34,500 nucleotides of DNA from a virus. Positions 11,110 to 34,500 of the stretch are shown piece after piece. The stretch is from IMG/VR virus record IMGVR_UViG_3300034062_000891, positions 1-34,500 of that record; one strand, written 5' to 3'. Below the pieces are notes generated by a model that worked only from the letters and a program-made list of their open reading frames with translations, had not been told where the DNA came from and made no database searches. How positions within the stretch are numbered: the first letter of the stretch is position 1; each line of letters starts with the position of its first letter. The position numbers and the translations under genes were made by a program.

Positions 11110-14100
11110 TTAACAATCTCCACATGATTCTATAGGTACTGCACTATTTGCTGATCCGTTTCTTCTAAATTTCCTATATTTAAATACACCACTTATTCTT
11201 TGTTGTAACCAGAACTCATCATCTGTAAGCATATCTGCCCAGACTGCACTAGGTAAGCTAATTACTTGAGTACAATCGCATAAATTAGTGCCTACTACCT
11301 GGATAGATATACTGCCATACTCACCACCAGTACAAACCTCTGCTGATCCTATAAGTGATGCTCTGCCACTAAAAGTAGCAGTAGTGTAGCCACATGATGG
11401 AGAATTTGCCTGGATCAATGCGCCTACACCAGTAAAGCCATAAGTAGAAGAGCATGGATTATTATCTATAGTTCTTTGATGTAAATCATATCCCATACAT
11501 ATAGTATTTGATCCATCATTAACATAGTTAGGCGCAGTATTACATGGTACACTTGATGGCGCAGTATTGCCTACATTCACTCCATTTACTTGGTAATTTA
11601 AGTAAGTAGCTGAACATATATTTAAGTCTCTATATACTATATAATTTGTACATCCTATACAAGTAGTAAAGTTTTGATTAACCCAGTTAGCGTTATAATT
11701 ACATGAATCATCTGGCGGAGCAGTTGTACCCTGGTCCTCACCACCTACATAATAGCGCAAATAAGTAAGAGAGCATGGATTAGTATTTCTATAAACGATA
11801 TACTCAGTACATCCCCAGCATGTGGTATAACCCTGACTGGTTAAAATAGGTGATCCATTACAATCACCACTAGCTGGCGCAGTTGTACCTACATTTACAC
11901 CACCTACAAAATATCTATTATAAGTAGCAGAGCATGGATTGGTATCTCTATATACTAAATAATTGGTACATCCAGAGCATGTATAATAACCCTGGCTTGT
12001 TAAGTTTGCAGTATAATTACATGCACCATTACTAGGCGCAGTATTACCTACATTAACTCCGTTTACTCTGTAATTATTATAAGTAGAAGAGCATGGATTA
12101 GTATCTCTATATACTAAATAAGTCACACACCCAGAGCATGTATTATATCCCTGGCTAGTCCATTGTGCAGTAGTAACACAATCACCATTTGATGGTGCAG
12201 TATTTCCTACATTAACCCCATTTACTCTATAATTATTATAGCTAGGAGAGCATGGATTAGTATCTCTATAAACTAAATATGTGCTACAATTTGAGCATGT
12301 ATTATAAGACTGGCTCACCCAGTTAGGTACAAAATTACATGTACTTTCAGTTGGCGCAGTATTACCCACATTCACTCCGTTTACTCTGTAATTCTGATAA
12401 GTAGGAGAGCATACATTCGTATCTCTATACACTAAAGAATCTACACAATTATAGCAGCTACTATAACTTTGGCTGGTCCATTGTGCAGCAGTATTACAAG
12501 ATCCATTTGTAGGCGCAGTCAAGCCTACATTAACTCCGTTTACTCTGTACTCATTAAAAGTAGCAGAGTAAGGATTCACATCTCTATAAACTATGTAAGT
12601 ATTACAAGATACGCAAGTATTATAATTTTGAGATGCCCACTGAGGTGTAGCATCATAAGTAGCAGTATTTTTTTCTATTACTCTTAATAAATCTACTTTA
12701 GTTAGATCATTAGCCTCTGGTGTAAAATCTATTACTTTATTTAATCTATATAATCCACCATCAATATGCACATATCTACCAAAGTCAAGATCAAAAATAT
12801 CTTGATCTGTAAGCTTAAAATATCCAGTTAATAATCTACTATCTTTATCTGTAATCTCAGCTAAATAAGTAGAGTAGTATGTATTAAATAAATTATTACT
12901 TAGATCACCAGTAGCCAATGTAAAATAAAGCTGCTGAGGTGCGCCAAAGTTAATATCTTGAGTAGGAGCATCTGGATCATCTAAATGCCCAGCATAAAGA
13001 TAATCTGTTCTAGATGTTAAGCTTGTAGCTCCGTTATAAATAGTCCATGATGTAACACCAGTTTGATATGATGTCTGCATAATACGCAAATTATGATCCA
13101 TTGGATCTTCTTTAGTATTCTCATTAGACTTCTTATAAATAGCTGGAAATACTTTATCTTGCCCAGTTGCACTATATAAAACAGATGCACTAAAGATCAC
13201 TTCTACTTGTTCAGTATCCTTAACAAATTCCAGGCCATTATCATAGATCCTATCACCATATCCCTCACTATATTTCTTACGATATTCCTCATTGTAGTAG
13301 TCGTTGTCTTGTTTGTATTTTAAATTGTAATATCTAGCATTTATCTCACTCATTGGCTTTTGCTTGATCACTTTCTCTCTATCAAGCTTATTGCTCCAAT
13401 CTACCTGGCTACCATCCCAGAAATCCACATAAGGTGATATAATTAAATGATTAGTTTTATACTTATCCTCAGTCACCAAAAGATTAAACATCTTCAATAT
13501 AGAGATAAAGAAATCTTTTTGAAATATACCTTTAGGGATAGTATTATTAATCTGTAATGATTCATTATAATTAATAGGCACTAAGCTACTTGTAGTAGTG
13601 CTAATATCAAAAGCACCATCTAGCACTTGCATCTGATAGCTTACCGATCCAGTCCATTCTACAGATACTTGCAATGTATCACCATTGTTAATAGTATTAT
13701 TACTTGATGATAATGTTAAATTAAAGTAATTTGAACTAAAGCCAGCACCAATAAAATAGCTAGCTATAGTAGTGCCATTCTTTTTTAATCTTACATTAGC
13801 AGCATTACCTAGCACCCAAATACCATTTAATCTAAAGGTTAAGTTCATTGCTTTAGATGTACCAGTATAAGTAAATAAAGTATTTGAGCTGGTCAAAGTA
13901 AAACTACCTAATGTGGTAGATACAAAGCTCAAATTAAACGCAGAGCCAGATCCAGTATAAGCCTTTAGTTCTGGTGTGGCCTCTAATTGCACATTACTAT
14001 TCTTTTGTAAAATAGCCTGGTTATTTGGTATAACCAATCTCTTGAATTTAGCCTCGCTAAAAAATGGGCAATCATAAGTATAACTAGATCCAGCAAAAAT

Positions 14101-14703
14101 CTTATCTAGATATTCTTTTACATATAAGGCTGGCTTAAATGTATTGAATTGAAAGTCTTTTTTTGCAGTACCATATGCACCAGTACTTACATTACCATAA
14201 TCTATCAATGGATAGCAGTACCCAGATCCTGGTGTATTAGTCCAGCTACCCACAATATTAGATATATTATATGTATGATCATATGCACTAAAATCTAGAT
14301 CCTCTAGTCTTTTATTGCCTAATGCATTAACAAATCCGCCTAGCTCACCAAAGATCGCACATTCATACTCTACTGCATCTCCATTTTGTATGATCTCTAT
14401 TAATCTTAGTACACCCTTCATGATCTGTAAGCCATTTAATTCTATTCTGGCTTTTGCATTAATGGCAGCATTAAAATTATATAAGACATTATCACTAGCT
14501 GGATTATAAAAGTTTGCACTATTAAATTCAAAGATATTACCTAATAATTTATTATTATTTGTAGTGCCAGGTAGTACTATAGTCTTAGTAAATGATGTGC
14601 TTTTGCTATCTAGATTTTGTAGATCATCAATAGCATAAGTAATCTGGTTACTAAGACCTTCTGTTAAATCAAGCTCATATCCCTCTATAAATATTCTAGT
14701 CAT
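11110..14703 (-). CDS. Large tail (baseplate/hub-like) protein with Cys-rich tandem repeats
   Basis: This 1197-residue protein lies between the Dit-like gene and the tape measure gene. Residues 1-125 ('FIEGYELDLTEGLSNQITYA', 'SFTKTIVLPGTTNNNKLLG') and 380-680 are beta-rich and match the general pattern of tail-tip proteins conserved in Bacteroidota phages. The segment near residue 430 ('DFWDGSQVDWSNKLDREKV') is typical of that family. From residue 689 come seven tandem repeats of 53 residues, each with C-x2-C, 'YRDxNPCS' and 'VNGVNVGxTAP' elements, followed by a degenerate eighth copy and a Cys-rich C-terminal domain ending 'SCGDC'. The protein is probably a tail-tip or host-contact protein. 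The repeat function is unknown. Confidence 0.7.
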   Translation of the reverse strand: MTRIFIEGYELDLTEGLSNQITYAIDDLQNLDSKSTSFTKTIVLPGTTNNNKLLGNIFEFNSANFYNPASDNVLYNFNAAINAKARIELNGLQIMKGVLRLIEIIQNGDAVEYECAIFGELGGFVNALGNKRLEDLDFSAYDHTYNISNIVGSWTNTPGSGYCYPLIDYGNVSTGAYGTAKKDFQFNTFKPALYVKEYLDKIFAGSSYTYDCPFFSEAKFKRLVIPNNQAILQKNSNVQLEATPELKAYTGSGSAFNLSFVSTTLGSFTLTSSNTLFTYTGTSKAMNLTFRLNGIWVLGNAANVRLKKNGTTIASYFIGAGFSSNYFNLTLSSSNNTINNGDTLQVSVEWTGSVSYQMQVLDGAFDISTTTSSLVPINYNESLQINNTIPKGIFQKDFFISILKMFNLLVTEDKYKTNHLIISPYVDFWDGSQVDWSNKLDREKVIKQKPMSEINARYYNLKYKQDNDYYNEEYRKKYSEGYGDRIYDNGLEFVKDTEQVEVIFSASVLYSATGQDKVFPAIYKKSNENTKEDPMDHNLRIMQTSYQTGVTSWTIYNGATSLTSRTDYLYAGHLDDPDAPTQDINFGAPQQLYFTLATGDLSNNLFNTYYSTYLAEITDKDSRLLTGYFKLTDQDIFDLDFGRYVHIDGGLYRLNKVIDFTPEANDLTKVDLLRVIEKNTATYDATPQWASQNYNTCVSCNTYIVYRDVNPYSATFNEYRVNGVNVGLTAPTNGSCNTAAQWTSQSYSSCYNCVDSLVYRDTNVCSPTYQNYRVNGVNVGNTAPTESTCNFVPNWVSQSYNTCSNCSTYLVYRDTNPCSPSYNNYRVNGVNVGNTAPSNGDCVTTAQWTSQGYNTCSGCVTYLVYRDTNPCSSTYNNYRVNGVNVGNTAPSNGACNYTANLTSQGYYTCSGCTNYLVYRDTNPCSATYNRYFVGGVNVGTTAPASGDCNGSPILTSQGYTTCWGCTEYIVYRNTNPCSLTYLRYYVGGEDQGTTAPPDDSCNYNANWVNQNFTTCIGCTNYIVYRDLNICSATYLNYQVNGVNVGNTAPSSVPCNTAPNYVNDGSNTICMGYDLHQRTIDNNPCSSTYGFTGVGALIQANSPSCGYTTATFSGRASLIGSAEVCTGGEYGSISIQVVGTNLCDCTQVISLPSAVWADMLTDDEFWLQQRISGVFKYRKFRRNGSANSAVPIESCGDC
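11527..12639 (-). repeat. Seven tandem 159-bp (53-residue) in-frame repeats
   Basis: The array starts at the TGG codon at 12639-12637 and ends at 11527. Each unit encodes a consensus W-x-SQ-x-Y-x-TC-x2-C, then YLVYRDTNPCS, then YRVNGVNVGNTAP, then a final C. Units three to six are the most alike. Copies start with W, W, W, W, L, L and W. Copy one has Y in place of the C in 'NPCS', and copies two and seven read 'NVCS' and 'NICS'. A degenerate copy follows ('TICMGYDLHQRTIDNNPCSSTYG'). The unit length is constant in the first two copies, which I counted base by base, and the array total fits 7 x 159 bases. Confidence 0.9.
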
Positions 14704-17235: not shown

Positions 17236-18402
17236 TTATATAACATGGTATTTACCTACCAGCTTGTGATCATTTCTACATTTATTTGCCAATGCCAAAG
17301 CTATCACGCAGTCATCATGAAATCCCTGAGGTGCTGAGTATCTAACCCCAGTAGGTGTGAATGTGTACTCAAATACCTCAAGCTCACCCTTTATAGGTCC
17401 TTCTGGAAAGCTTATCTGCTTTGTATGGATGGCGCTAGCCAAACCTTCTAAAAGCTGCTGCTTACTCACGCTGGTGAATTTAAAGCCATGCATCTGGTTA
17501 AACTTCTTTTGTAGATCCTCTACTATGGCATCACCCACACCAGTGCTATCAATTACGATAGGCACATTCTTAGGCAGCCTTAAAATAGTCTCTTTTGTTT
17601 GCATCCAATCTTTTTGGAATCTATCAAAATGCACCACATTGCCATTCTTATCTAGGCCTATGATGACAGACCAGTCCACAGACTTAGCCAGGTCAATTCC
17701 GTAATAAGCAGCCACCCCAGATGATGATCTGGTACAAGCCTGGATAAATTCAGATCCAAACGGATTAGAGGCATTCTCCATAGGATCTGCCATGTACTCT
17801 TGCTTAAATACCACACTAGGGAGCTGAGCTTTGGCAGCATCAATCTCAGATGGATCAATGAAAGGATTATCATAAGTGCTAAATTTAAACGATTCCCAGT
17901 CTGGCTCACCACCACGCATAAATAGGCTATAAAAATAATTTTTGCCTCTAGGTGTACTTAAAAAGATAGCCTTTCCTTTATAGTCTGTTAGTGTAGGTCT
18001 GATACTATTATTCCAGCCTTCCTCAAGATTAGAGATAAAGCTGGCCTCATCTATGATCACCAGGTGGAACTTCAAACCTCTCAGCGCATCCAATCTCTCA
18101 CCAGTAAAGAATCTAATAGATCCACCAGTAACAAAATTGATCATTAGATCAGTCTCATTCTTTTTATAGATCTTCTCTGGTAGCAGCTTACATATCTCCT
18201 TAAAAAATGTCTTACCTAGCTGATAGGTAGGTGTGATATAAGCAATGCTTTGTTTATGCAGTGCGCACTCTATTGATACATTCTGGCTAATTAATGATTT
18301 ACCAAACCTTCGCCCACACATCATCACCCTAAATCTAGCATCACTATCCAGCACTGCCTTTTGGGCCTGGTGTGGCTTAGGTAACTTAATCTGGAGATTC
18401 AT
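17236..18402 (-). CDS. Terminase large subunit
   Basis: This is the ATP-driven DNA packaging motor and genome-cutting nuclease, 388 residues. The N-terminal ATPase has Walker A 'GRRFGKS' (residues 30-36), Walker B 'LVIIDEAS' with D118 and E119, and a coupling motif 'FLSTPRG'. The C-terminal RNase H-like nuclease shows 'YYGIDLAKSVDWS' (D237), 'VIDSTGVGD' (D285, D291) and 'HDDCVIALALA' (D363, D364), the three acidic clusters expected. The length is on the short side for TerL but all motifs are present. It overlaps the gene upstream by 17 bases. Packaging chemistry (cos, pac or headful) cannot be told from this gene alone. Confidence 0.95.
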   Translation of the reverse strand: MNLQIKLPKPHQAQKAVLDSDARFRVMMCGRRFGKSLISQNVSIECALHKQSIAYITPTYQLGKTFFKEICKLLPEKIYKKNETDLMINFVTGGSIRFFTGERLDALRGLKFHLVIIDEASFISNLEEGWNNSIRPTLTDYKGKAIFLSTPRGKNYFYSLFMRGGEPDWESFKFSTYDNPFIDPSEIDAAKAQLPSVVFKQEYMADPMENASNPFGSEFIQACTRSSSGVAAYYGIDLAKSVDWSVIIGLDKNGNVVHFDRFQKDWMQTKETILRLPKNVPIVIDSTGVGDAIVEDLQKKFNQMHGFKFTSVSKQQLLEGLASAIHTKQISFPEGPIKGELEVFEYTFTPTGVRYSAPQGFHDDCVIALALANKCRNDHKLVGKYHVI

Positions 18403-18820
18403 ACTTGATTGTGATAGTATCTATGTTTGTATTCTCAGTTACTGCTCTATCAGTCATTCCTAAAGCATTCTTTGCATAGAAGATAGCCTTACCTTCATTC
18501 GCTACTATATCTGTAGCCAATGCCTTAAACATATCTACGATCTTATTGCAGATGTCATGATAAGGATGCGTAGGATCTTGTCTTACTTTCCAAAGGCCCA
18601 TCTTTGTGTAAAATTCAAACTCATGCTTTCTTAACCAGTGATGTAAGAAATAATCTATCGTTGGTACAAATCTATCTCTGATAGATACGATCTTACCAGA
18701 TCCAGTAGCCACCTCTTTAGTACCACTCATGCAATCATCACAATATGCATAGGCTAGATCCATTAGCTTCTCTTCATCTATATCCTTAAACTTTCTTGTT
18801 ACATGTTCTCTTGCTTCCAT
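18386..18820 (-). CDS. Probable terminase small subunit
   Basis: This 144-residue, mainly helical protein is encoded directly upstream of and overlapping the large terminase. The N-terminus ('EEKLMDLAYAYCDDCMSG') and the 'FVPTIDYFLHHWLRKH' helix fit the small terminases of Bacteroidota phages, which recognise the genome start and feed DNA to the motor. The C-terminus 'ITIKYESPD' is a short strand of the kind used for contact with the large subunit. It overlaps the glycosyltransferase-like gene upstream by 22 bases. The family is assigned by position and pattern. Confidence 0.7.
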   Translation of the reverse strand: MEAREHVTRKFKDIDEEKLMDLAYAYCDDCMSGTKEVATGSGKIVSIRDRFVPTIDYFLHHWLRKHEFEFYTKMGLWKVRQDPTHPYHDICNKIVDMFKALATDIVANEGKAIFYAKNALGMTDRAVTENTNIDTITIKYESPD

Positions 18821-19410
18821 ATCTTTAAATTTTTTGATCCGTTTCTATAAGCAGTAATATCATCCACATGCATCTGCCAGTACTTATTCACCAGCTCGCC
18901 TTTATCCCAGCCATATTCATCACCATTTGCATGCGATCCGATATGCTCTGCTTTACAATCTATTACATAGTATGTATAAAATCCAGCTAGGTTAGCACGC
19001 TCACAATAGTCCAGGTCTATTGGCCCATAAGGGAACATCTGCTCATTGAATATACCAATCTTATCTACCACCTTCATAGATAGTAGCCAGTTTGATATGA
19101 TATGCTCGCACTGGGCAGTATATCTTACATTGTCTAAGCTGCTTGCTACGATCCCAGCAAATGGGTAGCTTTTTAATGCTTCTACCTTTTTAGCTAGCCA
19201 GTTCTCTGGCTCTTTGATGTCATTTGCTAGATAGGCTATCGCATCATACTCATCTGCACCAGCTATATCTATAGCTTCATTTAATGCATTAGCTATGCCT
19301 TCTCTATTGATCAGCACATAGTCTGCCACATAACCAGCGCTCTTAATATTTTGCTCTAATATATCTAGAGGCCTATTGCCATATACCAGACATGCTATTA
19401 GTACTTTCAT
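18799..19410 (-). CDS. Glycosyltransferase, GT-A fold (family 2-like)
   Basis: This 203-residue protein has the layout of a compact GT-A glycosyltransferase: a beta-alpha start 'MKVLIACLVYGNRPLDIL', a nucleotide-sugar region 'NALNEAIDIAGADEYDAIAYL' followed by 'AND' in the DxD position, a 'GIVASSLDN' strand, and an acceptor region 'FPYGPIDLDYCERANLAGF' that corresponds to the EDxDxxxR segment of family 2. There is no membrane segment, so it would work in the cytoplasm. Its start overlaps the acyltransferase stop (ATGA), and its end overlaps the small terminase start. Sugar donor and acceptor are unknown. The DxD is imperfect, so activity is likely but not certain. Confidence 0.75.
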   Translation of the reverse strand: MKVLIACLVYGNRPLDILEQNIKSAGYVADYVLINREGIANALNEAIDIAGADEYDAIAYLANDIKEPENWLAKKVEALKSYPFAGIVASSLDNVRYTAQCEHIISNWLLSMKVVDKIGIFNEQMFPYGPIDLDYCERANLAGFYTYYVIDCKAEHIGSHANGDEYGWDKGELVNKYWQMHVDDITAYRNGSKNLKIWKQENM

Positions 19411-19895
19411 TTTACCTCATTTGGGCCTAGCCACTTTGCTGGATTGCCAGCATATTTTTGGTAAGGCTTAGTTATTAATTTTTTAGTTACCACTGCACCC
19501 ATACCGATCATACATCCTGGCGCTATCTCCATCTTTTGATGGATCACTGCATTTAATCCTACATTGCATTTATTATGCACTATCGTATGCCCTCCGATCT
19601 TTGCTCCACATGATAGCACCACATTTGGACCTATAAAACAATCATGGCCCACATGCGCATGCTTTAACATCCATACATCATTACTAATGTAGGTAGGTGA
19701 TGTAGTGCCAGCATCTATGGTCACATGACCAGTGATCACACATCCATCATTGATCACTACTGATCCTAGTGGCTTATCCCAGAAAGCCTTATGCTCTGCT
19801 GGTGCGCCTATGATGCAGTAAGGCCCAATGTATATATTATCTCCAATCAATTTAACATTGTCGTAAATAATCGCAGTCGGATGTATATAATTCAT
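19407..19895 (-). CDS. Left-handed beta-helix acyltransferase (LpxA-like)
   Basis: This 162-residue hexapeptide-repeat protein starts 'MNYIHPTAIIYDNVKLIGDN', very like the N-terminus of UDP-GlcNAc acyltransferase LpxA. Other LpxA-like elements are 'IGPYCIIG', 'SVVINDGCVITGHVTIDAGT', 'HVGHDCFIGPNVVLS', 'GGHTIVHN' and 'AVIHQ', with histidines placed as in the LpxA active site. It lacks the C-terminal helical domain (LpxA is about 260 residues). It ends with a 'YAGNPAKWLGP' tail like that of sugar O-acetyltransferases. It would transfer an acyl or acetyl group to a sugar or nucleotide sugar. Both neighbours overlap by four bases. The donor (acyl-ACP or acetyl-CoA) is undetermined. Confidence 0.8.
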   Translation of the reverse strand: MNYIHPTAIIYDNVKLIGDNIYIGPYCIIGAPAEHKAFWDKPLGSVVINDGCVITGHVTIDAGTTSPTYISNDVWMLKHAHVGHDCFIGPNVVLSCGAKIGGHTIVHNKCNVGLNAVIHQKMEIAPGCMIGMGAVVTKKLITKPYQKYAGNPAKWLGPNEVK

Positions 19896-20134
19896 AGCGC
19901 TATTTGATCTTTAAATGTTTTATAGACATTCACTAAGAATGTACCCACGCATGCGCCACATCTGTTATTATAAGTATAGATAGGATCTACCAGCTTATAA
20001 ACTTCAAGCAGCTCATTCTGGATCTCATGTGTAAATCCTACCAGCTCACCGCTCTTAATAAATAGATCATAAAAATGCTTATGCTTTAATAAGGTCTGCA
20101 TATGCTTCTCTTCTAAGTTTACTGATATGCTCAT
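19892..20134 (-). CDS. Small CxxC protein of the sugar-modification block
   Basis: This 80-residue protein starts at the ATG at 20134 ('MSISVNLEEKHMQTLL'). A longer reading from 20170 would overlap the glycosyltransferase gene further and begins with an unconvincing sequence. It has three short helices ('HFYDLFIKSG', 'EIQNELLEVYKLVD') and a C-terminal 'NRCGACVGTFLVNVYKTF' with one CxxC. That pair could bind a metal or form a disulfide. No known function is recognised. It is coupled (ATGA overlap) to the acyltransferase gene, so it may be an accessory of that enzyme or a virion protein. Confidence 0.5.
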   Translation of the reverse strand: MSISVNLEEKHMQTLLKHKHFYDLFIKSGELVGFTHEIQNELLEVYKLVDPIYTYNNRCGACVGTFLVNVYKTFKDQIAL

Positions 20135-21104
20135 AGTTGTACTTTGTTTTGGCCCAGTTGTAAAGATCATTACCCATCTTGATCCTTTCCTCTGGATTGT
20201 TAATTAAATATGTTAAATGTTTGTACCAATCTTTTTGGCTCTCTACCCATAGCACTGGTGCATCTGCATCCATACTATATGGCTCTACCTTACTCACTAT
20301 GCATGGTATTCTTTTACTTGCTGCCTCTAATATCTTTAAATTGCTTTTGCATGCATGCCAGTCACTTTCTTGCAAAGGTATTAGCATTATGTCTGCCTCT
20401 TCAAAATGGCTCATGTATGCATTTGGCAAAGTACTTGCAAGCTTCTTATTTGGTAGTCTGCCACCATCTGTGAATAAGCTCCATAGCTGATCCCAGTACT
20501 GCTTACTCACTGGATCACTATCTGTATAGCCACCTAGCACCATCTCTATATTATCAAAGTGATGCAGCCTCTTTACTGGACCTTTCAATAGCTTGATGTC
20601 ATCCATATGCGTAGATCCACCAGCCCAGAATAGTCTCACCTTATCACTAGGCTTCTTATCCTCTGTGTACTGGTGCTGGCCCAATGGTATGCAGTTAGGT
20701 AGTATTACCACCTTATCATGATACTGCCTAAGCTTTTGCGCCAGCCTTTCATTAGTGCATGTCACCAGATCAGCATACTTAATGTTATTGATCACTCGCT
20801 CTCTTTGAGGTGCGTAGAATTTATGTAATGGATGATTATAGGGTAGATCCCAGTCATCATCCATATCCATCACTATTTTAAAATGCTTCTTTGTCTCATC
20901 CCAGTTTTGATCAAATGGAGAGAATCTGTTATACAATAGTATATCAAATTGCCTTTCTTGTAGGATCTCTTCTGTAGGTACATTACATACATGGTTATAT
21001 GAATCTGGTAAGAATGCTAATGGTAATAGCACTCTATGCCATCCACATCCGCTCACCTTCTGGCTAATGCCCAGTACTTGTATTGTGTTATTTTCCCTGG
21101 CCAC
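20079..21104 (-). CDS. Glycosyltransferase, GT-B fold
   Basis: This is a 341-residue GT-B-type protein from the GTG at 21104. The ATG at 21194 would add 30 basic, non-conserved residues that overlap the small gene at 21088-21213, so the GTG is preferred. The N-domain begins 'NTIQVLGISQKVSGCGWHRV', with 'HFKIVMDMDDDWDLP' after it. The C-domain has 'RLFWAGGSTHMDDI', 'IEMVLGGY', then 'ADIMLIPLQESDWHACKSNLKILEA' in which the E-x7-E-like donor-binding end is replaced by 'KSNLKILEA'. The C-terminus 'NPEERIKMGNDLYNWAKTKYNYEH' is typical of family 4-like enzymes. Its end overlaps the next gene by 56 bases. Donor and acceptor are unknown. Confidence 0.75.
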   Translation of the reverse strand: MARENNTIQVLGISQKVSGCGWHRVLLPLAFLPDSYNHVCNVPTEEILQERQFDILLYNRFSPFDQNWDETKKHFKIVMDMDDDWDLPYNHPLHKFYAPQRERVINNIKYADLVTCTNERLAQKLRQYHDKVVILPNCIPLGQHQYTEDKKPSDKVRLFWAGGSTHMDDIKLLKGPVKRLHHFDNIEMVLGGYTDSDPVSKQYWDQLWSLFTDGGRLPNKKLASTLPNAYMSHFEEADIMLIPLQESDWHACKSNLKILEAASKRIPCIVSKVEPYSMDADAPVLWVESQKDWYKHLTYLINNPEERIKMGNDLYNWAKTKYNYEHISKLRREAYADLIKA

Positions 21105-21213
21105 GATATGCTTTTGGTTTTGGTGTGTGTTTGTTATAACTCTTTTTTGGTGATCCACATTTGCGCTTGCCAAATGTTTGCTTTTTTGAATCATTGCCTT
21201 TTGCCTTTGCCAT
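21088..21213 (-). CDS. Tiny basic protein, 41 residues
   Basis: This ORF begins ATG at 21213 and encodes 41 residues, about one third Lys or Arg, starting 'MAKAKGNDSKKQTFGKRKCG' and ending 'KPKAYRGQGK'. The phrase 'QTFGKR...KKSY...KPKxYxGQG' is a recurring small protein in Bacteroidota phages as I recall. It overlaps the preferred GTG start of the glycosyltransferase by 17 bases. Its role is unknown. Nucleic-acid binding is plausible from charge, and so is a virion-internal protein. Confidence 0.6.
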   Translation of the reverse strand: MAKAKGNDSKKQTFGKRKCGSPKKSYNKHTPKPKAYRGQGK

Positions 21214-21227
21214 ATATTATATTTTAT

Positions 21228-21359
21228 TTAGTCCATCCATTTGCCATGCTTTCTAAGATGCCAGAATCTATGCTTTAGCACTTCTATAATTAACTGCCAG
21301 AAAGTATCAGCATAGTACTCTCCCTCTTTTACTACAAGTTTAAAATTATATTGTTTCAT
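21228..21359 (-). CDS. Small protein, 43 residues
   Basis: This ORF starts ATG at 21359 and ends TAA at 21230-21228. The 43-residue product begins 'MKQYNFKLVVKEGEYYADTF' and ends 'HRFWHLRKHGKWMD', an amphipathic aromatic and basic sequence with no clear membrane segment. It lies one base downstream of the membrane protein gene and upstream of the 41-residue basic protein, tightly packed in the same transcript. The function is unknown. It may be a small regulatory or membrane-associated peptide. Confidence 0.5.
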   Translation of the reverse strand: MKQYNFKLVVKEGEYYADTFWQLIIEVLKHRFWHLRKHGKWMD

Positions 21360-21360
21360 A

Positions 21361-21600
21361 TTATTTAATTTTTTGTCCTAAAAATCCAGCGCCAAATATG
21401 ATCGCCACAAACTGGCTCACCTCAAATGGCAAGAAATAAAACACCACTGACATCCACACGCTTAAACATGTCACACAATCAAATGGCTTTATCCTTTGCT
21501 CAAATGGGATGTGCCATACCTTTTTTATAAAGTAAATTATTTTGGCCACATTCACAAAGTAATAAGCAAAAAAGAATCCAGCTAATGCTATTGTTATCAT
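21361..21600 (-). CDS. Small membrane protein with CxxC
   Basis: This 79-residue protein has two to three hydrophobic segments, at residues 3-20 ('TIALAGFFFAYYFVNVA'), 46-57 ('LSVWMSVVFYFL') and 62-75 ('SQFVAIIFGAGFLG'). A 'FDCVTCLSVW' CxxC lies between the first two. The C-terminus is 'GQKIK'. It lies one base after the sigma-like gene. The fold resembles small inner-membrane proteins found in Bacteroidota phages. Its function is not known. The pair of cysteines could coordinate a metal or join subunits. Confidence 0.55.
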   Translation of the reverse strand: MITIALAGFFFAYYFVNVAKIIYFIKKVWHIPFEQRIKPFDCVTCLSVWMSVVFYFLPFEVSQFVAIIFGAGFLGQKIK

Positions 21601-21601
21601 C

Positions 21602-22150
21602 TTACAAAGTTTTAGTTATACAAATATGTTTTAATTCTGCTCTAGTCTTTCTGATAATATCTTTTACATGCTTCTCTGGTATATTATAGAACTCAGCTAC
21701 TTTCTTGCATGATCTTACCTCCACATACTTAGTAAATAATATAGCCTCATGTGCATGCATCTCATCCTCAGCATGCTTATCATGTAATCTCTGGCTTGCT
21801 ATGGTAGCAAATTTAGGATTTAATTCTGGTAATTTAGTTTGACATCTTAAATATTCTATAGCCTTATCATAATCAGACTGCCTAAATTTTTTATAGAATC
21901 TGCTGGTAGAACTAAATGCCATATTAGTAATAATCTTAATAGAAAAACCAATCAAGCCATTAGAATCATAAATAGATTTGATCTTATCACAATCCATATT
22001 AAGTAGCGCTAATGCCATCTCTTGCTTTAGATCATCTTGAAGATCCAAAGGATGCACAGACTTAATCAGCCTACAGATTTCTGGGTGATTATAGATAAAT
22101 TCTATCATCTCATTGCATGTACTCGGTTTATTTTTTTCTATCTTATTCAT
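21602..22150 (-). CDS. Sigma-70-like / RNA polymerase-associated regulator
   Basis: This 182-residue protein starts at the ATG at 22150. A TTG six bases upstream is a weaker start. The N-terminal half has 'LDLQDDLKQEMALALL', which fits sigma region 2 as seen in small ECF-like factors of Bacteroidota phages. A basic 'SSTSRFYKKFRQSDYDK' linker follows. The C-terminus has 'KKVAEFYNIPEKHVKDIIRKTRAELKH', a helix-turn-helix like region 4. It is the first gene after the repeat-rich control region, which suggests a switch of transcription to the late leftward genes. The family is assigned by motif pattern. Loss of sigma activity cannot be excluded. Confidence 0.65.
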   Translation of the reverse strand: MNKIEKNKPSTCNEMIEFIYNHPEICRLIKSVHPLDLQDDLKQEMALALLNMDCDKIKSIYDSNGLIGFSIKIITNMAFSSTSRFYKKFRQSDYDKAIEYLRCQTKLPELNPKFATIASQRLHDKHAEDEMHAHEAILFTKYVEVRSCKKVAEFYNIPEKHVKDIIRKTRAELKHICITKTL

Positions 22151-22390
22151 TATCAATCATTTAACCTATATTTTGTACTAATGTACTCACTTAACCCTAA
22201 AAAAATTGAACTAATAAAAACTTTATCTCTTAAAAAAATGAGGACCAACAAAAAATCTACTTAAATTAAGTACACCAAGTACAGACTTTATAACTAATTG
22301 ATTTTCATTTAGTTTGGATGTACTCGGTTTGTACTCAATGTACTCGGTTTTTAGGCTTAATAATGAATTTTTGGCCAAAGTACTCAAAAA
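22118..22390 (-). promoter_or_regulatory. Control region with repeated TGTACTC motifs and palindrome
   Basis: No gene is visible between 22151 and 22422. TGTACTC or close variants occur at 22118, 22182, 22319, 22330, 22339 and 22379 (AGTACTC). The form TGTACTCGGTTT is exact at 22118, 22319 and 22339. The three copies at 22319-22350 are nearly tandem, about ten bases apart. The inverse motif appears twice at 22268-22281 (AAGTACACCAAGTACA). A perfect palindrome TACTTAA-A-TTAAGTA lies at 22258-22272. This is an operator array or a replication-origin iteron set upstream of the sigma-like gene. No promoter box was convincing. Confidence 0.6.
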
Positions 22391-33419: not shown

Positions 33420-34500
33420 TTATGATTTATTCTCTAATGCTGATACTTTAGCAGAAAGTTCTTGTATTGCCTTAACTAATATTGCAGTAATACCCTGATA
33501 ATCTACAGACTTCCATTGCCCTTCATTAACTAAAGCTGGAATTATCTCCTCAACCTCTTGAGCAATAAATCCATTAACCTCATTAGTTGATTCTTTCCAG
33601 TTAAATTTACGAGGTTTTAAATTTAATATTTCATTTAATCCATAAGATATATTTTCAATATTATCTTTTAATCTTGCATCTGATTCAGCTACATAGTTTT
33701 TAACATATACAGAGCCAGAGTTAGATGCTGGTCTAATATACCAATCTCCATATGTACCATAATGTAAATGTGACGCATTACCTCCTTTACTTGGATTCCT
33801 AAATTGAGCAGTTCCACTTGTTGTATTATTTCCATGCACATGCAATGCTACCTCATCTGTATCAGTATTATTTATACAAACACTACCATTATCTCTAATG
33901 CGCATTCTTTCTGTGCCATTAGTCATAAAAATAGTTGGTGCATTTTCCTCTTGAGCTATATAAAAATTATCATCATTTGACCCTCCATATCCAACAAATG
34001 CTTTTCTTACACCACTTGAACGATAAAACGACATATAACCATCACCAATAGTATCAGCGCAAGTAAGCCTTAAAGTTTCACTTGTACCAGATGGAGTATA
34101 TATTTTAAAAGCACTTGTAGTACTAACATTAAATCTTTCAACAAGAGATGCATTATTATTAGCAGTACCACTTGTTACACCATAATAAACTAAAGAGCCA
34201 CCTTCAATCCCAAATAATCCAGCAGCACCATTAATAGTATATTTATAATTACCATCTGATCCTACATATAAATTGCCACCCCAGTAACTACTTGCACTTG
34301 ATCCATCTTGTAATAAAGACATTGATACTCCTATCTGTAATGCTTTATATGAACTATTCCAAATATTAGGATTTATACCAATTCCTACATTACCAGTAGA
34401 TGTGATAGTTAATCTATCTATTTGACTTGTTGCAAATGCTAAACTTGTATATGAGCCAGTACTACCATAAGTTGATGCTATTCTACCTATTGTACCAGTA
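33420..34500 (-). CDS. Tail fibre C-terminal part with S74 intramolecular chaperone (partial, runs off right edge)
   Basis: The frame is open from 34499 down to the TAA at 33422-33420, giving 359 visible residues. An internal ATG at 34322 is not the real start, since in-frame residues continue upstream of it. The C-terminal domain is a peptidase S74 chaperone: 'ESDARLKDNIENISYGL', 'LKPRKFNWKES', 'NGFIAQEVEEIIPALV', 'VDYQGITAILVKAIQEL'. In this family the domain trimerises the fibre and then cuts itself off just before the Ser of 'SDxRLK'. The remainder is Gly/Asn/Ser-rich fibre. It is probably the end of the gene that begins at 2566. Confidence 0.85.
   Translation of the reverse strand, partial: TGTIGRIASTYGSTGSYTSLAFATSQIDRLTITSTGNVGIGINPNIWNSSYKALQIGVSMSLLQDGSSASSYWGGNLYVGSDGNYKYTINGAAGLFGIEGGSLVYYGVTSGTANNNASLVERFNVSTTSAFKIYTPSGTSETLRLTCADTIGDGYMSFYRSSGVRKAFVGYGGSNDDNFYIAQEENAPTIFMTNGTERMRIRDNGSVCINNTDTDEVALHVHGNNTTSGTAQFRNPSKGGNASHLHYGTYGDWYIRPASNSGSVYVKNYVAESDARLKDNIENISYGLNEILNLKPRKFNWKESTNEVNGFIAQEVEEIIPALVNEGQWKSVDYQGITAILVKAIQELSAKVSALENKS

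Follow-up and report, generated by a model that had tools for sequence, protein, structure and literature searches.

Why does a virus carry genes for sugar- and acyl-transferring enzymes directly in front of its terminase genes, and on what would these enzymes act? Here we address this question for a single 34.5 kb virus record, which is referred to as the window (the whole stretch of DNA analysed, 34,500 nt). The module lies on the minus strand, where the following genes precede the structural genes in the order given.

Positions 21602-22156, minus strand: sigma-70 region-4-like regulator (sig), conserved in position and first gene of the conserved stretch; its Sigma70_r4 match (E 0.0021) is below the Pfam cut-off.
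Positions 21361-21600, minus strand: small hydrophobic protein (tm79) with a conserved C42xxC45; constant upstream neighbour of the module.
Positions 20079-21194, minus strand: GT-B-fold glycosyltransferase (GT-B) of the phrog_7162 family (E 1.6e-60), 371 aa from ATG 21194.
Positions 19892-20170, minus strand: small soluble CxxC protein, 92 aa (80 aa from ATG 20134), with invariant C71 and C74.
Positions 19407-19895, minus strand: predicted left-handed beta-helix sugar N-acetyltransferase (AcT), 162 aa, with a conserved HxGHD motif; nearest to Pcryo_0615 (PDB 8e62).
Positions 18799-19410, minus strand: GT-A-fold (GT2/GT27-like) glycosyltransferase (GT-A), 203 aa, with invariant N63-D64, D132, D134 and H156.
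Positions 18386-18820, minus strand: terminase small subunit (TerS), assigned from phrog_606 (E 0.012) and its position before TerL.
Positions 17236-18402, minus strand: terminase large subunit (TerL), with Pfam Terminase_6N and 6C above cut-off and phrog_2 (E 3.7e-46).

The earlier note had described four ORFs forming an operon with the terminase genes, and both their coordinates and this arrangement were borne out. The CxxC gene may start at ATG 20170 or at ATG 20134 (in two aligned relatives, the protein begins where the shorter version would), which gives an overlap with GT-B of 92 or 56 nt, respectively. The CxxC/AcT and AcT/GT-A overlaps are 4 nt each, and those of GT-A/TerS and TerS/TerL are 22 and 17 nt. 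Alternative starts for GT-B are ATG 21194, TTG 21173 and GTG 21104, the last being the choice of the earlier note; the reading frame continues without a stop as far as ATG 21194, and an alignment revealed a similar N-terminal extension, at least in part, in several relatives. The gap between tm79 and GT-B (about 21230-21420) has an aligned identity of about 33% with three phages (L002, L005 and L006) that are otherwise about 95% identical, and many relatives carry an extra gene of 77-103 aa between tm79 and GT-B. The tm79 protein, which has the motif PFDCxxCLSxW including C42xxC45, gave no match in Pfam or PHROGs, and throughout the group its gene nearly always lies at a distance of one or two genes from GT-B.

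A hexapeptide Pfam family matches the acyltransferase above its cut-off, and the predicted model is a beta-helix (pLDDT 95). The closest solved relative is Pcryo_0615, annotated in its PDB title as the N-acetyltransferase for 2,3-diacetamido-2,3-dideoxy-D-GlcA; the profile match is full-length (E 1.1e-55), and the superposed models agree with a TM-score of 0.93-0.95 at 1.0-1.6 A and about 50% sequence identity (49-51%). The earlier note had called the enzyme LpxA-like, and acylation of lipid A by an enzyme of this type would indeed agree with the 98 bits at which LpxA profiles match it. The score for the curated LpxA family TIGR01852 (97.8 bits) is, however, far below the cut-off of 231 bits, the C-terminal alpha-helical domain of LpxA is missing (162 versus about 260 aa; the model ends with helix repeats and short strands), and identity to LpxA entries is 19-27%, as against about 50% to the sugar N-acetyltransferase. 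We consider lipid A acylation highly improbable and rejected the LpxA assignment because of the score, the missing domain and the nearest structure. Membership of the NeuD/PglD family (TIGR03570) was rejected as well, since only the beta-helix part is matched, with 86 bits against a family score of 160.8 bits, and the N-terminal Rossmann-like domain is absent. Of the structural types proposed for comparison, neither LpxA nor PglD thus fits, and the label is corrected to a Pcryo_0615-type sugar N-acetyltransferase. Because profile and fold place AcT with Pcryo_0615 and the LpxA score is widely missed, its predicted reaction class is sugar N-acetylation; the likeness gives the class and not the sugar. 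The remark that such an enzyme is uncommon in phages does not hold for this group, as a pattern scan of IMG/VR recovered at least 549 relatives.

The two glycosyltransferases differ in how readily they are recognized. GT-B matches the phrog_7162 glycosyltransferase profile over its full length (E 1.6e-60, residues 44-364). GT-A is weak by sequence (Pfam GT2, E 0.002), and profile searches of both enzymes against PDB sequences yielded marginal hits only. The predicted model of GT-A (pLDDT 88.6) nevertheless matches solved GT-A enzymes, among them protein O-GalNAc transferases (GT27), WrtF and the viral protein A197 of STIV, so that the predicted fold makes the assignment secure. No informative match was found for the CxxC protein, whose gene is missing in lineages with the 'rgrpkk' gene.

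Conservation of the module was assessed with 76 loci drawn from IMG/VR as TerL relatives, of which those covering the stretch from sig/tm79 to TerL represented 19 lineages after removal of TerL duplicates at 95%. GT-B is present in 18 of these 19 lineages, and AcT and GT-A occur together in 14; the sole lineage without GT-B (L077) has a TerL of 34% identity. The order sig-tm79-GT-B-CxxC-AcT-GT-A-TerS-TerL recurs, with variations, in dozens of IMG/VR contigs with TerL identities down to about 60%, which is far beyond chance. Among the closest relatives, dN is well below dS, indicating purifying selection on the module. Inactivating substitutions among relatives, which the earlier note had named as counter-evidence, were sought and found to be absent; in the aligned relatives, the key residues are invariant in GT-B (motifs KSNLKxLEAA and DxDDxW), in AcT (GHD, N115/H119/Q120 and other glycines) and in GT-A (N63-D64, D132, D134 and H156).

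Within this conserved frame, AcT and GT-A behave as a unit. In a set of 45 dereplicated lineages, which includes loci from GT-B and AcT queries and is therefore query-biased, both genes are present in 29 lineages and both absent from 16, and neither ever occurs alone. Most lineages without the pair have other genes at the same place; the main replacement genes were found in none of the 29 lineages with the pair versus 13 of the 16 without it (query-biased, phylogeny ignored). These replacements comprise a SAM-methyltransferase-like gene of 175-180 aa (Methyltransf_23, E 2.5e-5, below cut-off), a phrog_21658 methyltransferase, a protein of L126 with Methyltransf_23 above cut-off, and an unassigned family of 220-233 aa. 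The last appeared by eye to be a likely heptosyltransferase (GT9), which was unconfirmed by Pfam, PHROGs and PDB profile searches. A FkbM match at L122:9877-10392 is weak (E 0.016).

Sequence divergence is similarly uneven among the closest phages. Identity drops to 72-77% in a segment of AcT (L005 and L002) and to 76-77% in GT-A (L006), although these phages are about 95% identical elsewhere in the region; dS reaches 0.83 for AcT in L005 and 0.98 for GT-A in L006, whereas the remaining genes of the comparison have values of roughly 0.06-0.5. Such local drops are the signature that allele exchange between related phages would leave.

Another possible reading is that the module builds a sugar chain on modified DNA bases. 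The earlier note considered DNA glycosylation of the T4 type unlikely, and our searches support this. Profile searches of the record, run with positive controls (Tet_JBP recovers the TET enzymes of L064, L065, L114 and L129), gave no match to Thymidylat_synt, Tet_JBP or N6_N4_Mtase, and no other base-modification enzyme was found among its larger scanned proteins; glycosylation of the T4 or TET type was therefore rejected for this phage. Among close relatives, N6_N4_Mtase is absent from L002, L004 and L005, and Tet_JBP from L002 and L004. DNA hypermodification would find support in distant relatives with DNA-modification genes next to the module, either in the slot flanked by GT-A and TerS or immediately upstream of sig; there, a ParB domain is accompanied by an N6/N4 methylase, by a TET/JBP dioxygenase and a transferase, or by the DpdA/QueC/QueD/QueE/FolE set. 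However, relatives with TET/JBP bring their own extra transferase-like genes, an N6/N4 methylase lies outside the module in some relatives, and the presence of AcT is independent of recognized DNA-modification genes (Fisher P 0.74; 45 lineages, phylogeny ignored). Because the module persists with or without such genes, it appears independent of any one base chemistry, and we regard a role in DNA hypermodification as improbable.

The slot before TerS has a varied content of its own, in which the ParB domain is constant and the modifying partner changes. In L043 (6029-9633), the genes between GT-A and TerS encode ParB_N, a DpdA-like transglycosylase (phrog_887, E 1e-55), QueC, QueD, QueE and FolE; this 7-deazaguanine set looks complete, and L043 is likely a DNA-modifying phage. 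The same set is found upstream of sig in L137. A ParB domain, a transferase-like gene (unassigned, 300 aa, or of the phrog_842 type in L114) and a TET/JBP dioxygenase occur near the module in L065 (7271-9640), L064, L067, L114 and L129; these phages measure about 34 kb, and the combination is a candidate cassette for DNA hypermodification. In L053 (8485-9624), L054 (8523-9668), L062, L073 and L076, the slot before TerS encodes a fusion of a ParB N-terminal domain with an N6/N4 DNA methylase.

Bacterial genomes help to decide to whom the module belongs. Close AcT relatives occur in Chitinophaga, in Chitinophagaceae and in one Cytophagales MAG, and of these five loci in genomes, four are clearly phage blocks: L080 retains sig, tm79, AcT, GT-A, GT-B, ParB and TerL, L078 and L082 retain the block with g212, g218 and g377, and L079, a prophage of Chitinophaga whose terminase is a different one, carries the AcT, GT-A and GT-B families between TerL and the portal gene. 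On the basis of the prophages in Chitinophagaceae, the host phylum is probably Bacteroidota. Strong matches to GT-B were found in 2 of 299 genomes of the family and 1 of 396 of the phylum (the single shared match being the phage block L082), and those to AcT in 2 of 396 sampled host genomes. GT-B is a phage family, since it is nearly absent from host chromosomes. Given this rarity of GT-B and AcT, and their linkage with the head genes of two types of phage (by the TerS/TerL overlap in the window and in the order TerL-module-portal in L079), we conclude that the module belongs to phages. The same counts, and the phage origin of four of the five AcT loci, lend no support to its recent capture from the LPS locus of a host.

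We consider it somewhat probable that the four genes make up a soluble module, expressed late, which places a variable glycan with an N-acylated sugar on a virion protein, the late expression, the acceptor and the benefit being presumptive. Of the earlier suggestions of virion or host-glycan decoration, the former fits best, the latter fits less well, and lipid A drops out as a target. Judging from the gene order, the glycan-building genes would be transcribed late, together with those for packaging and structural proteins. AcT would N-acetylate or N-acylate an amino sugar in the manner of Pcryo_0615, its presumed substrate most likely being a host-made UDP-sugar. A dehydrogenase or aminotransferase for this substrate, and hence an amino-sugar pathway, was not recognized in the phage, and the host must therefore supply it. 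This is conceivable, because there are Bacteroidota that produce 3-amino uronic sugars and attach them to proteins (the Wbp/Vim pathway of Porphyromonas and Tannerella; PMC7468200). GT-B and GT-A would then transfer sugars, including the acylated one, to a structural protein of the phage, presumably in the cytoplasm; an acceptor there is favoured because transmembrane-type segments were not detected in GT-B, AcT or GT-A. Virions would leave with a short decorated glycan, and exchange of the AcT and GT-A pair for methyltransferase-like genes would provide related phages with different glycans.

Several other genes of the window deserve mention. A 1197 aa tail protein (11110-14703) has repeated Cys/Thr/Ser-rich units (CxxCxTYLVYRDxNPC...NVGNTAP) and no Pfam match; it is conceivable as a putative glycan acceptor. 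Two open-ended minus-strand ORFs at 2-2566 and 33420-34499, of which the latter encodes an S74 chaperone domain, look like one tail fibre split by the ends of the record; joining them is off frame by one, and a few bases may be missing.

The main rival to virion glycosylation is the remodelling of host surface glycans late in infection, and it holds this place since bacterial O-antigens contain sugars of the Pcryo_0615 type. In this reading, the two transferases would attach an AcT-altered sugar to LPS, to capsule or to a lipid-linked precursor on the inner membrane face, with the proposed effect of blocking re-adsorption of progeny, excluding superinfection or masking receptors. According to its PDB title, Pcryo_0615 takes part in making an unusual diacetamido sugar, and sugars of this type occur in the O-antigen of that organism (PMC8040287); variable decorating enzymes would also suit a surface glycan, the hydrophobic tm79 constantly adjoins the module, and an isolated Flavobacterium phage (Immutovirus) has a larger cassette with transferases, aminotransferases and a pilin-glycosylation-type acetyltransferase. 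Nevertheless, flippases of the gtrAB kind and bactoprenol transferases were not recognized in the block, the benefit to a lytic phage would be limited, and in the C. varians prophage, TerL and portal flank the module, a position from which the lysogen is unlikely to express it. We therefore regard surface remodelling as possible but rather doubtful. An extension of virion glycosylation, which we offer tentatively, is that a constant GT-B primes the virion protein and exchangeable decorators (an N-acetylated amino sugar or a methylated sugar) vary the glycans of near-identical phages, much like serotype variation, beside an exchangeable DNA-modification slot.

Virion glycosylation has been demonstrated in few tailed phages. 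A compact module found in nearly all members of a large environmental phage group, for whose AcT a solved structural relative exists and whose decorators are swapped in nature, would make a virion-glycan role in free-living phages directly testable. The site just upstream of TerS, which gathers glycan and DNA-modification genes, is also useful for finding new modification chemistry. Among known systems, Pcryo_0615 resembles AcT in its fully alignable length, about 50% identity and near-identical fold, but is part of a bacterial sugar pathway, whereas the phage lacks a recognized dehydrogenase or aminotransferase for the substrate. The cluster of the Immutovirus (Flavobacterium phage vB_FspM_immuto) likewise unites transferases with an AcT-related acetyltransferase; it is much larger, includes genes for amino-sugar synthesis, belongs to a 160 kb phage and has no adjoining terminase in the stretch examined. 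A four-transferase block of Phapecoctavirus shares the GT-B family (about 31-33% identity), but adjoins primase/helicase genes and is without an acyltransferase in the stretch examined. A197 of STIV is, like GT-A, a small stand-alone viral GT-A enzyme (TMq 0.57, TMt 0.60), described as essential to the virus, for whose coat protein glycosylation has been proposed (PMC10551542); it differs from the module as a single enzyme of an archaeal virus with 16% identity. The mycobacteriophages Che8, Corndog and Myrna (Freeman et al. 2023, as cited in PMC12363180 and PMC11256854) likewise encode their own glycosyltransferases, which modify capsid and tail-tube proteins in the cell. Their hosts are Actinobacteria, the passages citing that work mention no acyltransferase partner, and the transferases of one cluster F relative are described near the 3' end of the genome, whereas here they overlap the terminase operon. 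Assembly of a virion-protein glycan in the cytoplasm, as in the mycobacteriophages and as proposed for STIV, would be the most economical account of the module.
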